Shown: positions 47,431-53,821, numbered from the stretch's first letter. The stretch is DNA of 64,000 nt from Spirochaetales bacterium (GCA_016839055.1 JAEKNX010000003.1:310001-374000), one strand, 5' to 3'. Made by a program: numbers and translations. Notes: generated by a model not told the origin, from the letters alone.

Positions 47431-48315
47431 TCACTCAAGATCGGGAACAAGTCCCTCGGCCCGCTCCTTCAGGTAACTGCTGAACGATATCTTCGGAACG
47501 CCTCTGGCCGCCTTTGCCCTGACAGTAATTTCTTCGCCGGTTCCGGGATGTCTTACGACTCTAGGCTTCTGGGCCTCCCTGGTCTTTATGGAGAATCTGC
47601 CTAGCCGTCCGAAGGGAACGGACTCACCCATCAGCATCCCTGTTTCAATGAGCGTTATAAAATCCTCAAGAATCAGCCGCGCTTCCTGACCGGTCAACCC
47701 GTGTTTCTTCGCTAAAAAACGGGTCATGGATTTCATAGTAAACTGATCCGGTATAAAACCGTTGTCAGGCTGAAGATACTGATTATACTTCATGAAGCCG
47801 GCAGTAATGAAGACGGCGCTTTCACGTACCCGTTTATCCTGCTCTTCTTCGCTGAGGCCTTCCGGACATACAGCTATCAGATAGGCGGGACTTGTTGATT
47901 GAACTTTGGAGCTGCAGAGCCGTACAGACTCTCCGATCGTCGGAGAGGAATCAAGGGTGGCCCCTTTTTCCATGATGATATCGGGCACCTCTGTTCTAAG
48001 CTTTATGCTGGAATATTCTATCCAGCGGCTGAAGTTTACGTTCGTACTGGTCAGAAAAACGGGTCCGATACAAAGAATTGAACCGGAATAACTGAGAATC
48101 ATCATCCCCCGGGTATCTTTTTGAGAAACATTTTCTACAAGCTCAAGTTTCACCGACCTTATCTGCTGCCTGAAAAGCTCTTCCTTCTGATGCCAAACCT
48201 CAACAAGCCGCCCGAGGTAGGCCCCGTCATCCTGCATCTCCCTTTCCTTCGCCAGTCCTAATAGATGTTTTTGAATTGACTCTGGCAAGTCCTGTAAATT
48301 TGTTACTTTTCCCAT
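47431..48315 (-). CDS. HU-type DNA-binding domain fused to an unknown N-terminal domain
   Basis: Protein of 294 aa with two parts. Residues ~1-180 form an unrecognised domain with a conserved core GMMILSYSGSILCIGP and a later STSPAYLIAV; the same core occurs in the divergent gene at 48464. Residues ~190-290 are an HU/IHF-type domain: KKHGLTGQEARLILEDFI, FGRLGRFSIKTREA and the DNA-clamp arm RVVRHPGTGEEITVRAKAA. HU proteins are usually ~90 aa and free-standing, so this fusion is unusual. It should bind DNA as a dimer, while the N-terminal domain may receive a signal. It is the leftward neighbour of a phospho-signalling cluster. Confidence 0.82.
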   Translation of the reverse strand: MGKVTNLQDLPESIQKHLLGLAKEREMQDDGAYLGRLVEVWHQKEELFRQQIRSVKLELVENVSQKDTRGMMILSYSGSILCIGPVFLTSTNVNFSRWIEYSSIKLRTEVPDIIMEKGATLDSSPTIGESVRLCSSKVQSTSPAYLIAVCPEGLSEEEQDKRVRESAVFITAGFMKYNQYLQPDNGFIPDQFTMKSMTRFLAKKHGLTGQEARLILEDFITLIETGMLMGESVPFGRLGRFSIKTREAQKPRVVRHPGTGEEITVRAKAARGVPKISFSSYLKERAEGLVPDLE

Positions 48316-48355
48316 TTCCTATATCTCCTACCTACTAAGCTAGTGCGGTTTAATG

Positions 48356-48402
48356 AAAAAAACCATGTTTTTTTCATTTTTTTCCGAAAAAAATGGTTTT
48401 TT
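48356..48402. promoter_or_regulatory. Hairpin with A- and T-runs between divergent paralogues
   Basis: A 17-base right arm (48386-48402, GAAAAAAATGG then T-run) pairs with the left arm (48356-48375, A-run then CCATG and a T-run), with one unpaired G and a 10-base spacer. It has the form of a bidirectional terminator, but it lies upstream of both divergent genes, where termination of incoming transcripts is not needed. It could be an attenuator or operator of the gene at 48464. Confidence 0.5.
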
Positions 48403-48463
48403 ATTGAAAATGGATATAGGATTAATCTTGCAGCTGCTTACAAATACATTTTGGAGTAAAACA

Positions 48464-48997
48464 ATGGGTGAAAATTTTAACAGCCTCGTACCCGAGGTAC
48501 AGGCACATATCAGAATGCTCGTAAAAACAGCAAAGCTAGAAAACAATGATGAGTCACTGGAAAAACTGTCCGGAGGCTGGCTTGAGAAGCAACAGTCTTT
48601 TTTTGAGCAGACTAAACAGCGTGAGATGATCGAAACCGAATCATTTAATATTGACGACCGGTCGGGCGCTCTCATAATGACGTATTCCGGCTCTCTTTTA
48701 AATATTGGTCCGGAGCAGGATGATTTCCGCTCAGTTCAGTATTTCAGTATAGGCCTCCGCAACGATGTGCCTGAGTCGGCAGAAGATGAGGCCTCCGTCC
48801 TCAAAAACAGCATCGAAAAAGGGCGCCCTGTTGAATTTGAGAAAGGCCCTATTACAAAGAGCAGTCCCGTCTATTCAATTGCTGTTTTCAAGGAAGAAAT
48901 GGACCCGGCGCAGGAAGAAGAAATGCTTGACGAGGTTACCTTGATTGTTGCGCAGGATTTTGCTTTAATTAACAAGACGACAATACAGGAAAGCTGA
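48464..48997 (+). CDS. HU-less paralogue of the unknown domain
   Basis: Protein of 177 aa. The start at 48464 follows GGAG 9 bases upstream and gives a protein beginning like its divergent paralogue. The core GALIMTYSGSLLNIGP and later KSSPVYSIAV match that of the HU fusion at 47431, but the HU domain is absent. The N-terminal ~65 residues are helical and charged. No known family is recognised. It is followed by the phosphatase gene 8 bases later, so it is the first gene of the kinase/phosphatase operon. Its role may be to compete or pair with the HU-bearing copy. Confidence 0.72.
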   Translation: MGENFNSLVPEVQAHIRMLVKTAKLENNDESLEKLSGGWLEKQQSFFEQTKQREMIETESFNIDDRSGALIMTYSGSLLNIGPEQDDFRSVQYFSIGLRNDVPESAEDEASVLKNSIEKGRPVEFEKGPITKSSPVYSIAVFKEEMDPAQEEEMLDEVTLIVAQDFALINKTTIQES

Positions 48998-49005
48998 GAT
49001 CAGCC

Positions 49006-50022
49006 TTGAAAGAAAACGGAAAATATTGGCCGGAAATCCTCGAGCGCCTTTCAAGTATAGAGAGGCGCCGGGGAATTTCACCGGCAGAGGACCTGCAGCT
49101 AATCCTGTCAACCGGAACAGACTGCCTGCTGAATGAAAACCAAAGAATAAGACCCCCGAGCAGCAAGGGCGGGCCGGGGGGATTAATCAGGCTGAAACCG
49201 GAAGGATATTTTGTCATAGTTCCGGATCTGCATGGCAGGCTCGATTTCTTTCATGCCGTCATGCGCTGGCAAGGACTCTCCGGGAAGCCTGTAATTGCAG
49301 ATATGGAAGAAGGCAGGGCGCAGGTCATCTGCGTTGGAGATGCTTTTCACAGCGAATCTCGGGGGCAGGCCCGCTGGCAGAAAGCCGTTAAGGAATGGTC
49401 CGGAGGCTTCAAGAAGCATCAGCAAATGGACAATGAGATGAGAGAAAACCTCGGCCTGCTTGAAATGATCAATATCGTGAAAACGACCTTTCCGGAGCAG
49501 TTCCATTTCCTGAAAGGGAATCACGAGAATATAGCAAATGAAAGAGGCGAAGGCAACTATCCTTTCAGGAAATATGCCTTCGAAGGTGAAATGGTAAAGT
49601 TGTGGGTTCAAACCTTCATGGGAATAGATCTCTTCAAGACCATCTACAGGTGGGAAAAATCCCTGCCGCTAATGGCCGAGGGAAAAGATTTCCTTGTAAC
49701 CCATGCCGAGCCGGGACGAGAACTTAGTCCGGACGAGGTTATAGATGCATATGAACACCCCGAGGTTATCTACAGCCTCACCTGGACCGACAACGGACAG
49801 GCGGAAGAATGCAGCGTCGCGAAGACTCTGCAGAATTTTTCTATGACTTGTCCAGAAAGCAGAATTTTCGGCGGACACCGGGCCGTATTCGGGAATTATG
49901 CGCTTAGACAGGAAGGACGGTATGTTCAAATCAATAAACCCCGTTCCTGGCTTATCGCGGCATTTACCAATATGCGAGAATTTCTGCCGGATGAAAACAT
50001 AATAAGCTTAAAAAAGGAATAG
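49006..50022 (+). CDS. PPP-type metallophosphatase
   Basis: Calcineurin-like phosphatase of 338 aa. The metal motifs appear in order: VPDLHGRLD (Asp74, His76), ICVGDAFH (Asp112), LKGNHENI (Asn172, His173), LVTHAEPG and FGGHRAVFG. This spacing matches Ser/Thr phosphatases of the PPP family rather than nucleases. The second motif is GDAFHSE rather than the usual GDxVDRG, so an arginine that holds phosphate is missing. The start is TTG at 49006. It precedes the kinase gene by 4 bases, so the two are likely antagonistic partners. Confidence 0.85.
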   Translation: MKENGKYWPEILERLSSIERRRGISPAEDLQLILSTGTDCLLNENQRIRPPSSKGGPGGLIRLKPEGYFVIVPDLHGRLDFFHAVMRWQGLSGKPVIADMEEGRAQVICVGDAFHSESRGQARWQKAVKEWSGGFKKHQQMDNEMRENLGLLEMINIVKTTFPEQFHFLKGNHENIANERGEGNYPFRKYAFEGEMVKLWVQTFMGIDLFKTIYRWEKSLPLMAEGKDFLVTHAEPGRELSPDEVIDAYEHPEVIYSLTWTDNGQAEECSVAKTLQNFSMTCPESRIFGGHRAVFGNYALRQEGRYVQINKPRSWLIAAFTNMREFLPDENIISLKKE

Positions 50023-50026
50023 AACG

Positions 50027-51592
50027 GTGGCAAAGATACCTGAACAAATTGACAAGTATGTGATTGAGGAATTGATTGCAACCGGGGGAATGGGAGCCAT
50101 TTTCAAAGGAATCCATCCAACCCTGAAACGGTCGATTATTCTTAAGAAGCTTACTCTGAGAGGAAATGCTACAATTACAGAGCGGTTCCGCCGCGAAGCC
50201 AGCATATTAATGGATTTCCGCAACGATCACATCGTTGATGTACAGGACCATTTTGTGCAGGGACGCAGTCATTATATAGTAATGGAGTATGTCGACGGCC
50301 CTTCACTGAAGGAACTCCTTGATGAGCAGAGGTATCTTGATAACTATACCGCCGCATATATAGCCCTTTATACTGCAAAGGCTCTGCAATATGCGCATTC
50401 CAAAGGCGTAATTCATAGAGACATTAAACCGGGAAACATACTCATATCCCGAAGCGGCGACATTAAACTTGCTGATTTTGGAATTGCGGCTACCCGCGAT
50501 CAGCTGACCGATGACGAAGCATTAACAACCGACGGAATGACCCTCGGAACTCCCGCTTATATGGCGCCGGAGCAGTTTGAAAATTCACGCACTGTCGACT
50601 ACCGTGCCGACATCTACTCCCTGGGAATCATGATGTATGAGATGCTCACCGGCCTAAGGCCCTTCCCCGGCGGGTTTACACCGGAAACCATCAACCTTAT
50701 TCAGAAGGGGAAATATAAACAGCTTCGGAAGATAATCCCAACCATAGCGCCGCCATTACAGAAGATAGTTAATTCCTTAATAAAACCGCGGCCAAAATCC
50801 CGGTTAAAAAACATTTCAGTGGTCATCCGTAAACTCGAGGCCTGGCTTGACAGATATCAAGAAGATGATATTAAAGCCAGACTCTGTGCTATGGTAAAAG
50901 AAGAGCCAGCGCCTCCGGTCAGGCTGAAAAGCCATCCGAAATACAAGCTCTTCATCGGCATAGGAATAGCTGTACTCGTGCTCTCGGGGCTGATAGTTGG
51001 CTGTTGTGCCCTAACTCAAATTCACAGACGCCTATTACACCCAAATGACTTCGGCCAGATTCAACTGACTACAGAGACAGCAGGAAGACCTAGTACCGAA
51101 TTGTTTATTGATGACGGAAATGAGATTCCCACTATAGAGATGAAGGTGAGATACTTCCCCGTGAAAACAAATTACCGCAGCCTGTATATCGTCCTGCCTT
51201 CCGGAAAATACAGGGCAAAGACTCTGCTTGGACAAAAAGTTATATGGTCATCATTCACCCTCGAACCATGGAGTAAGGGAGGGGGGACAAAATCAATAAT
51301 CATCGACCGAGCAGACACAGAAGCCCATGAGATAGACATAAGTTTTAATATTCATGACGCGGAAAACGGCTGGGACTTGAGACAGATAGGCCTTATCGAA
51401 CTTTTCAGGGACGGAATATTCATTTCCCTAACAGATGCAGGGACACCAATGTCCGGCAGAGTACATCACTTCCGAATCTCGGCTCCGGGCTATGACAGTC
51501 AGGAATTCATTCTCAAGATCAATAAGAACGAATCGGCTCTGCATTTTCAGCTTGAGCTTGAGCCGAAAAAAAATGATGAGGATAATAAATAA
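50027..51592 (+). CDS. Membrane Ser/Thr protein kinase
   Basis: Eukaryote-like (Hanks-type) kinase of 521 aa. The glycine loop is LIATGGMGAIFKG, the ATP lysine is near Lys40 (IILKKL), the catalytic loop is VIHRDIKPGNILI with HRD at 130-132, and DFG is at 150-152; the activation segment ends AYMAPEQF. A single transmembrane segment lies at about 308-329 (LFIGIGIAVLVLSGLIVG). About 190 residues follow outside, with beta-rich sequence of the PEGA-like type (SGRVHHFRISAPGYDSQEFI). The start is GTG at 50027 with AAGGAAT upstream. All catalytic residues are intact. The stop overlaps the next start (TAATG). Confidence 0.95.
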   Translation: MAKIPEQIDKYVIEELIATGGMGAIFKGIHPTLKRSIILKKLTLRGNATITERFRREASILMDFRNDHIVDVQDHFVQGRSHYIVMEYVDGPSLKELLDEQRYLDNYTAAYIALYTAKALQYAHSKGVIHRDIKPGNILISRSGDIKLADFGIAATRDQLTDDEALTTDGMTLGTPAYMAPEQFENSRTVDYRADIYSLGIMMYEMLTGLRPFPGGFTPETINLIQKGKYKQLRKIIPTIAPPLQKIVNSLIKPRPKSRLKNISVVIRKLEAWLDRYQEDDIKARLCAMVKEEPAPPVRLKSHPKYKLFIGIGIAVLVLSGLIVGCCALTQIHRRLLHPNDFGQIQLTTETAGRPSTELFIDDGNEIPTIEMKVRYFPVKTNYRSLYIVLPSGKYRAKTLLGQKVIWSSFTLEPWSKGGGTKSIIIDRADTEAHEIDISFNIHDAENGWDLRQIGLIELFRDGIFISLTDAGTPMSGRVHHFRISAPGYDSQEFILKINKNESALHFQLELEPKKNDEDNK

Positions 51593-52470
51593 TGAAGGTA
51601 AACAGAAAAATAATCATATATCTGGTGTTGGGAGTATGCGCCGGACTCGTTTCATTTTCCGCGGTTGAACTTCTCACGGCGGCAGGCATCACGAGTTTTC
51701 TGGCGCTTTCTCTGGCACAAGGCGCTGCTCTTGGCTTTATATTCGGATTTGTCTTCGGATTTGCCGACGGAATTCTTTATAAAGAACTAAAGAGCGGCCT
51801 CATGAAGGCTTCGGTGGCGGCGTTAATCGGCGCTATAACGGCCGCCGCTGCCATGATCCTCACCTCGCAGGGAATGATCTGGACCTCCGGCTTTATTAAC
51901 CTTGAACATAAGCAGACAATGGGAATTCTCCTTCCGCTTTGGAGGGGAGCAGGATGGATGCTGATGGGCGCGGCTATCGGCGCTGTTGACGGCATACAGC
52001 AACGGGCCTCGCGGCGGACCCTTGCGGGAATCCTCGGCGGACTTCTGGGCGGTTTATCGGGCGGAATGGGTCTGGAATTTATAATCAGATATCTGCCGGA
52101 GGCCTCGCTCGCCCGGGCAGCCGGACTGCTTTGGATGGGCAGCATGATAGGCCTCTTCCTCGGAGAATTTGAGAAACGCTTTAGCTACGCGAGACTGCGA
52201 GTCCTCAACGGCCGCCTGAAAGACAGGGAATTTCTTCTGGTTAACAAGAAAATCAGGCTAGGGGAAAATCTTCAGGATGATCTCTATCTAAAAGGATACA
52301 AAAAAGTCGCCCGGGCTATAATTTCCAGAGCGGACGGCGAGATTTATATCGAAGGCGAAAACAATAGCCGCATTCTGGTAAATGATCAGATAGCAGAGAC
52401 AAAACGAACTCTTAAATACCAGGATGTTCTCAAACTGGGAGACGTAAAGCTCCTGTATCTGCCCTTATAA
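51592..52470 (+). CDS. Membrane protein with C-terminal FHA-like domain
   Basis: Membrane protein of 292 aa. About six hydrophobic, Gly/Ala-rich segments fill residues 1-200 (LGFIFGFVFGFADGILY; GILGGLLGGLSGGMGLEFI). The last ~90 residues resemble an FHA fold, but the usual Gly-Arg and Ser-x-x-His motifs are degenerate (KIRLGENLQDDLYLKG; KVARAIISRADG). Direct phosphothreonine binding is therefore doubtful. The start codon shares a base with the kinase stop. It may be a kinase substrate or scaffold. Confidence 0.75.
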   Translation: MKVNRKIIIYLVLGVCAGLVSFSAVELLTAAGITSFLALSLAQGAALGFIFGFVFGFADGILYKELKSGLMKASVAALIGAITAAAAMILTSQGMIWTSGFINLEHKQTMGILLPLWRGAGWMLMGAAIGAVDGIQQRASRRTLAGILGGLLGGLSGGMGLEFIIRYLPEASLARAAGLLWMGSMIGLFLGEFEKRFSYARLRVLNGRLKDREFLLVNKKIRLGENLQDDLYLKGYKKVARAIISRADGEIYIEGENNSRILVNDQIAETKRTLKYQDVLKLGDVKLLYLPL

Positions 52471-52483
52471 GAAGGATTACAAG

Positions 52484-53821
52484 ATGAAGAAGATTATAAT
52501 ATCAGCAATTATTATCCTGAGCGTCTTACCGCTCTGGTCACAGAATATTCTAATAAGCCAGGTAGATACGAATAATCTGCTGTTCAAGGGAAAGATAGAT
52601 ATATACTTTTCCATGACAGGCATCGAGACTGCCGGGCTGTCACCTGAAGACTTTACAATTCGTGAAGAAACAATGGGAGACCTTGAAATCACAGCACTCA
52701 AAAAAGGTGCCGACAAAGACGCAGGTATCGATTTCATTCTGCTCATAGACAATTCAGGCTCCATGTATGAAGAAAGCTACCAGGGAAGCCGCAGAATAGC
52801 TCAGGCAAAGCTTGCGTTGAGCTCCTTCCTTGAGAACATAGACGAATCCCGCGACAGGGTCGGCGTCTATGCGTTTAACACCATGCTGGAGGAGATAGCT
52901 CCGCTGGGAACAAAAGTGCCGGATATTCACCGAAGACTCTCGGCGATCGAGCAGCCTGAGGCAGGGATGGCCTACACCGAACTTTATAATTCACTCGGTG
53001 AAGTAGCAAGATTATTTCCAGGAAAAGCCGGTAGAAGGGCAGTTATTGTCCTGTCGGACGGTGAGAACTATTCCCTGTTTCAGCACGGAGGACGTGAGCA
53101 TGAAGAATGGGGAAAGACAGTCATCAGTCCTGAGGAAATAGTACAGACATATCAGGAAACCGGAATCACACTGGACGGTATCAATATTTCAGATAAGGTC
53201 GACACAAGGCTTGCCGGAATATGCGGTGAAAGCGGCGGTAGTTTTCATGACGTCCGCTCCACAGATGCAATCAGCAATGTCTATACCGACATTAAACAGC
53301 GGATAACCGATGAATACATGATAACAGTTAAAGCTCCGCCCCTGCCTGGAAGCAGGGGAAGAATTAAACTCAGCTATAAAGACGGACATGACAGCCGCGA
53401 TCTTTTAGTACCTGTGCTCTTCGGTGGAGCCTCAGATCTTTCGATAATAGTTTCCATATTACTGCTTCTCTTCGGCCTGGCAGGCCTAGGCGCTGTTTAT
53501 TACATTCCTTTCGAAAAACCGGTTAAATCCGCCCAGATACAAAGCCTTGAGTCGAATCAGAGAACAATTCTAAATGAGGGAGCCACCATCATCGGGGCGA
53601 GTCGTGACGCAGACTATACGATTGCCGGGAATCCCGGTATTGATTCCGAGCATGCCACAATCGTCCATGACAAGCAGGCTGGAACATTTACCCTGGTCAG
53701 CAATAGAGCCGTCCGGGTAAATAACAGGAAGGTCAAAAACCGAGAACTTACTCCCGGAGATGTCATTCAGATTGAGGGAAGCACGATTATCTTTGATGCG
53801 CCGGATGCAACAAAGGTATAA
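52484..53821 (+). CDS. VWA domain protein with transmembrane segment and FHA domain
   Basis: Protein of 445 aa. A signal peptide (MKKIIISAIIILSVLPLWSQ) is followed by a VWA domain with the metal-site motif DNSGS at 89-93. A transmembrane helix near residues 320-345 (SIIVSILLLLFGLAGLGAVYY) leads to a cytoplasmic FHA domain from about 365: TIIGASRDADYTI and IDSEHATIVHD. The Ser-x-His residues for phosphopeptide binding are present here. It thus joins an outer metal-binding adhesion-type domain to an inner phosphothreonine reader. It is the last gene of the cluster. Confidence 0.88.
   Translation: MKKIIISAIIILSVLPLWSQNILISQVDTNNLLFKGKIDIYFSMTGIETAGLSPEDFTIREETMGDLEITALKKGADKDAGIDFILLIDNSGSMYEESYQGSRRIAQAKLALSSFLENIDESRDRVGVYAFNTMLEEIAPLGTKVPDIHRRLSAIEQPEAGMAYTELYNSLGEVARLFPGKAGRRAVIVLSDGENYSLFQHGGREHEEWGKTVISPEEIVQTYQETGITLDGINISDKVDTRLAGICGESGGSFHDVRSTDAISNVYTDIKQRITDEYMITVKAPPLPGSRGRIKLSYKDGHDSRDLLVPVLFGGASDLSIIVSILLLLFGLAGLGAVYYIPFEKPVKSAQIQSLESNQRTILNEGATIIGASRDADYTIAGNPGIDSEHATIVHDKQAGTFTLVSNRAVRVNNRKVKNRELTPGDVIQIEGSTIIFDAPDATKV

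Follow-up and report, generated by a model that had tools for sequence, protein, structure and literature searches.

Can a bacterial Ser/Thr kinase in the membrane act directly on a protein that sits on the chromosome, and what would a locus devoted to this task look like? This question is raised by positions 47,431 to 53,821 of a 64,000-nucleotide stretch of DNA from a Spirochaetales bacterium (GCA_016839055.1 JAEKNX010000003.1:310001-374000), which we call the window. Here, two divergent genes encode paralogues of a domain that we designate D: one copy stands alone, and the other is fused to an HU DNA-binding domain (D-HU). The stand-alone copy leads an operon for a PPP-like phosphatase, a Hanks-type Ser/Thr kinase and two membrane proteins with FHA-like domains, referred to as the membrane/FHA-like and the VWA/FHA-like protein. 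A first-pass annotation had already described two divergent D paralogues around a shared intergenic region, one of them HU-fused and the other leading the operon, and had taken the locus for a candidate module of phospho-signalling from the membrane to DNA. The description is confirmed: all six open reading frames (ORFs) were borne out, and the gaps within the operon are 8, 4, -1 and 13 bases in the order D, phosphatase, kinase, membrane/FHA-like protein and VWA/FHA-like protein. The interpretation is supported in part. The significance of the locus lies in the combination of an undescribed protein domain with a kinase module that is encountered repeatedly in the phylum of the spirochaetes. 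Its features are as follows:

47431-48315, minus strand: D-HU gene (294 amino acids), with the D domain at residues 5-184 and the HU domain at residues 193-289
47764-48303, minus strand: D domain within the HU fusion (match of the family hidden Markov model to residues 5-184, E 1e-78)
47449-47739, minus strand: HU DNA-binding domain (PF00216, 47.8 bits against a cut-off of 22.4; arm signature)
48316-48463, strand not assigned: spacer of 148 bases common to both divergent D genes
48367-48437, plus strand: conserved AT-rich block, a candidate promoter or operator, kept in four close relatives
48464-48997, plus strand: HU-less D gene (177 amino acids), operon gene 1, with a C-terminal NKT motif and an AlphaFold2 model
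49006-50022, plus strand: PPP-like metallophosphatase (338 amino acids, TTG start; PF00149, 25.6 bits, just over the cut-off)
50027-51592, plus strand: Hanks-type Ser/Thr kinase (521 amino acids, GTG start; PF00069, 174 bits), with the kinase domain at residues 11-261, one transmembrane segment at 308-326 and a predicted outer tail of 195 residues at 327-521
51592-52470, plus strand: polytopic membrane/FHA-like protein, with a C-terminal degenerate FHA-fold domain at residues 203-287
52484-53821, plus strand: VWA/FHA-like protein, with an N-terminal signal-like segment, a predicted periplasmic VWA domain at residues 83-267, a transmembrane segment at 320-338 and a degenerate FHA-fold domain at about 359-437

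Conservation of the gene set among spirochaetes

The six genes almost certainly form a real module, i.e. a single conserved gene set of free-living spirochaetes. A scan of all GTDB species for near-identical peptides returned four loci, all from spirochaetes (Candidatus Thalassospirochaeta sargassi, a Spirochaeta sp., a Spirochaetales genome and Alkalispirochaeta alkalica), and the divergent six-gene cluster is complete in all four of these relatives. Among 393 genomes sampled across the phylum of the window, Spirochaetota, D was detected in 46 by a first model and in 47 by a wider one, and most of the D-positive genomes carry two copies, of about 175-200 and about 290-330 residues. The order D-phosphatase-kinase-membrane/FHA-VWA/FHA recurs many times among the approximately 60 loci that were mapped; the phosphatase gene follows D immediately in 38 loci, and the median intra-operon gaps are 8.5-15 bases; no neighbour family outside the module is present in more than seven of these loci. 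Since the order recurs across the phylum and no outside family exceeds this number, the arrangement reflects neither chance nor general synteny, and the earlier view of the gene set as one module can be maintained.

Moreover, when only strong matches are counted, 40 genomes encode the membrane/FHA-like protein. All 40 have D, and the 346 genomes without D contain no such match (Fisher p 7e-48, without correction for the relatedness of the genomes). The co-occurrence of D with the gene set, for which a profile search had been proposed, is thus observed. A widespread occurrence of D without the kinase cluster was not seen within the phylum; the membrane/FHA-like gene is missing from seven of the 47 D-positive genomes, and one of these seven is only 67% complete. 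A comparison of the evolutionary distances of the module proteins yielded correlations of moderate size but lacked a neutral control, and nothing was drawn from it. In the literature, the coverage of which was incomplete, we found no paper on this module.

Domain D and its fusion to HU

D is a new domain, undescribed as far as Pfam, NCBIfam, the PDB and viral folds were tested. In a pairwise comparison, the two copies in the window, of about 175 residues in the stand-alone protein and about 180 in the HU fusion, are 27% identical across 174 residues (E 1e-20). For the window proteins, D gave no match in Pfam, NCBIfam or the PDB sequences, a D profile found nothing credible in the PDB, and the fold of D found nothing at E <= 0.001 in PDB and viral structure libraries, the search with D-HU matching the HU half only; the domain had been called unrecognised before, and it is so by sequence as well as by fold. 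Because no Pfam or NCBIfam family was matched by more than two of 38 diverse D sequences, the scattered single-member Pfam matches were taken as chance. An origin of D from mobile elements was rejected, as no match was found in plasmids, phages or viral contigs. An AlphaFold2 model of D alone, based on an alignment of ten sequences (pLDDT 88.9, pTM 0.85), predicts a fold of three helices at the N-terminus, some eight strands and, at the C-terminus, a long helix. The conserved residues include W39, K42, F46, S75-G76-S77, R89, Y93, S95, R99, V102-P103, S134, F166 and N170, and the operon copies carry a C-terminal (I/V)N(K/R/N)T followed by a few further residues.

HU is not the only partner to which D is fused: in proteins from three other spirochaete genomes (L046:8194-9105, L088:9439-10449 and L090:5077-5949), D is followed at the C-terminal side by a helical domain of about 115-124 residues that has no annotation, and this alternative domain suggests that D is a modular adaptor. 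One genome has a third D copy (L085:9107-10309), encoded divergently from the gene for a canonical FHA protein that also has a DNA-binding domain of the LuxR type. At another locus (L092:10508-11626), a protein that combines an HU domain with a membrane segment and a LysM-like region is encoded beside a distant D gene.

The HU half of D-HU is matched by IHF/HU chains of the PDB both by sequence and by fold. It keeps the beta-arm signature (R/K)(N/H)PxTGEE, with TGEE present in 28-33 and the intercalating proline in 25 of 33 members, and this retained signature predicts a functional HU domain of the DNA-binding type, as had been proposed. All 32 D-HU proteins fall into a single clade of the tree (support 100/99); thus, HU was joined to D once. 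The D-HU gene adjoins the operon in 23 of the 32 cases, 21 times as the divergent neighbour of D and twice at the opposite end (L055 and L071), and every D-HU genome of the sample has the operon, none carrying D-HU alone. The other HU match in the window genome lies at C25:41895-42158. In the spacer between the two D genes, the conserved block follows the pattern TTTTTTCA..TTTTTCCGRAAAAAATGGTTTTTT.TTGAAAAT.G.TATAGGATTA..GCAGCTGC, and its core occurs only once in the whole genome, even when 3 mismatches are permitted. This block may be a promoter or an operator; the counts of promoter and terminator consensus sequences were at chance level.

Kinase, phosphatase and membrane proteins

The Pfam domain matches of the window proteins are HU (PF00216), Metallophos, Pkinase and VWA. 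The catalytic motifs of the kinase (glycine loop, VAIK lysine, HRD, DFG and APE) are kept in 39-40 of 40 members, and a Pkinase search identified the operon kinase as the one strong Hanks kinase of the window genome. The only other Pkinase match of this genome is a weak one inside an ORF of 1714 residues (G000:C8:102651-102908). In the phosphatase, the residues PDxHxR, GD, GNHE, H and GGH are kept in 37-38 of 38 members; compared with the PPP-type motifs GDxHG and GDxxDRG, the family has the variants PDxH(G/A)R and GDxxHxExR, whereas GNHE and GGH are retained. One genome has an additional gene at the end of the operon, for a soluble kinase with a zinc ribbon and a canonical FHA domain (L060:8814-10031).

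The FHA-like assignments in the window rest on matches to Yop-YscD_cpl below the threshold (25.9 bits for the tail of the membrane/FHA-like protein and 20.3 bits for the VWA/FHA-like protein, cut-off 33.2); a fused homologue from Alkalispirochaeta exceeds the cut-off (Yop-YscD_cpl 54.0 bits, FHA 42.5 bits). At the position of the GR arginine, the residues listed for 36 members of each family, VWA/FHA-like and membrane/FHA-like, include no arginine. Neither family conserves the serine of SxxH or the asparagine of NG, and a Pfam FHA search of the window genome gave no match. Because the phosphothreonine-binding residues are lost in all or nearly all members and Pfam finds no FHA domain in this genome, the FHA reader of the first-pass annotation is unsupported, and we dismissed the operon FHA domains as phosphothreonine readers. 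A similar loss of residues has been described for YscD and PrgH of type III secretion, and binding of phosphothreonine by that domain was judged to be unlikely (PMC3635987). An annotation as "kinase plus FHA" can therefore mislead, since the FHA domains encoded here are unlikely to be readers of the usual kind.

In the VWA domain, the metal ion-dependent adhesion site (MIDAS; DxSxS, Thr and Asp) is kept in 34-35 of 35 members. The two membrane proteins are encoded as one ORF in five genomes of three families (L006, L040, L042, L086 and L128), and this fusion argues for one complex of both proteins. At one locus (L039:3618-5098), the VWA/FHA gene appears to be split across two overlapping frames, possibly by a frameshift.

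A candidate route from the membrane to the chromosome

How might these proteins work together? We tentatively favour the idea that kinase and phosphatase belong to a membrane scaffold, with D as the soluble partner and D-HU as the DNA-bound branch, even though we put its chance at somewhat less than even. The kinase would sense the outside of the inner membrane via its C-terminal tail, and the polytopic protein would join with the VWA protein in one membrane complex. The metal-binding VWA domain would lie outside, and the two FHA-fold domains would lie inside, where they would offer surfaces for the docking of proteins and not read phosphothreonine. Phosphorylation would be reset by the PPP-like phosphatase. 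D would be a dedicated cytoplasmic partner, either as a substrate of the kinase or as an adaptor that docks on the complex, and D-HU, which carries the same docking domain on HU, would pass the state of the membrane complex on to DNA; its targets perhaps include the promoter between both D genes, which would result in autoregulation. The fusion of the second D copy to a DNA-binding domain hints at a possible direct path by which the cell surface could signal to the chromosome, and HU-type proteins of Myxococcus and Mycobacterium lose DNA binding upon phosphorylation by Ser/Thr kinases (PMC6213207, PMC4754617). The topology of the complex, the role of D as a partner and DNA as the output are what we infer, and for the last of these the balance is tipped a little further towards doubt. 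Small as it is, the locus contains all parts of a concrete candidate case in which a bacterial Ser/Thr kinase could act directly on a protein of the nucleoid type.

Several observations weigh against this proposal. Several near-complete genomes (G253, G131, G023 and G139) have the operon but no D-HU, and DNA can therefore not be the sole output. Nine D-HU loci are located away from the operon or on other contigs, some of these contigs being short. The tree contains a sparse distant subfamily of D apart from kinase genes, and D may thus have a role that is independent of the operon. Finally, within the same incomplete literature coverage no experimental work on any member of the module was found.

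The phosphatase offers a different perspective. Its family is broader than D and extends to about 55 further genomes, mostly of one family that is presumably Treponema-like, and in Treponema-type genomes a three-gene operon without D encodes a small canonical FHA protein, the PPP-like phosphatase and a membrane kinase (L111-L114, L125 and L126). In the small FHA protein, every residue for phosphothreonine binding is present, and the N-terminus carries a conserved D.TI..S..G motif that looks like a phospho-acceptor tail. The protein can be likened to the actinobacterial kinase substrates GarA and OdhI, the latter being phosphorylated near the N-terminus, at Thr14 (PMC2784874). The small FHA protein is encoded in most D-positive genomes and adjoins D-HU or the operon in about ten of them. 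The core of phosphatase and kinase might thus act on this GarA-like protein, and thereby on metabolism or another cytosolic target, with D and the membrane proteins as add-ons and with D-HU only tuning the expression of the locus. We consider this unlikely: the small FHA protein is present neither in the window genome, which has no Pfam FHA match at all, nor in its congener, and yet both have the full D operon and D-HU. In the gene order, D occupies the slot that the small FHA protein has in the Treponema-type operon, and this suggests a corresponding partner role for D. It is tempting to speculate that D, as a new signalling domain, has replaced the canonical FHA protein as the dedicated partner of the kinase, and that D-HU brings the phosphorylation state to DNA and so provides a one-step route from a membrane kinase to a nucleoid protein, unlike two-component systems or FHA readout; this further step is doubtful.

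The other alternatives have less in their favour. With a MIDAS VWA domain outside, two FHA-fold scaffolds inside and HU fused to the domain that leads a membrane operon, the module could be a membrane-nucleoid tether or an envelope morphogenesis complex, in which D-HU sits on the chromosome, the docking partners of D keep it at the inner membrane and phosphorylation times the attachment; FHA-fold domains without the binding motif build ring scaffolds in type III secretion (PMC3635987). This is a distinctly unlikely scenario, since D-HU is missing from several operon-positive genomes and nothing favours a structural over a regulatory role. We regard it as even less probable that D-HU is a functionally unrelated neighbour that has D in common only through an old duplication: the D-HU loci away from the operon would fit this idea, but most D-HU genes are found beside the operon and none in a sampled genome without it. 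The kinase matches the kinase models of PADLOC (best PD-T4-6, E 1.7e-72), which would fit an anti-phage defence system. However, these matches are generic to the kinase domain, none of the remaining five proteins matches a PADLOC model, the family is conserved phylum-wide as one locus and D is absent from the plasmids, phages and viral contigs searched; a defence system was thus rejected as highly improbable. Kinase, phosphatase and FHA proteins also occur together in the locus of the threonine phosphorylation pathway of type VI secretion (PpkA, PppA and Fha1), of which the module might be an example or a relic. Yet the sheath protein VipA was found in none of 46 D-positive genomes, with a positive control in E. 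coli, no secretion gene family is recurrent beside the cluster, the phosphatase is a PPP-like metallophosphoesterase (PF00149) rather than a PP2C enzyme like PppA, and the FHA pockets are degenerate. The absence of type VI secretion genes refutes this pathway, to which we assign virtually no probability, and it agrees with the initial view that the locus is not a secretion locus.

If the membrane scaffold with D and D-HU as its soluble and DNA-bound partners is set beside known systems, several of its parts resemble these, with differences. The FHA folds of YscD, PrgH and MxiG are membrane-anchored and without a phosphothreonine motif as well, and they provide the best Pfam match of the membrane/FHA-like tail; the module differs by the lack of adjacent injectisome genes, by the sub-threshold match of the window copy and by the fusion to, or partnership with, a VWA protein. 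D-HU has in common with HU and IHF the PF00216 match and the arm signature, but it carries the D domain of 180 residues in front and is not a stand-alone nucleoid protein. A functional parallel to the module as a whole, compared by parts and not by sequence, is the Arn network, in which the FHA protein ArnA, the VWA protein ArnB, the kinases ArnC and ArnD and a PP2A phosphatase provide the same set of FHA, VWA, Hanks-type kinase and PPP-type phosphatase that is present here. ArnA and ArnB are separate, soluble proteins, the FHA domain of ArnA binds phosphorylated ArnB, the target is archaeal motility, and the network has no D or HU fusion. In Sulfolobus, these FHA and VWA proteins, kinases and the PPP phosphatase jointly control gene expression (PMC7472852, PMC12852372).

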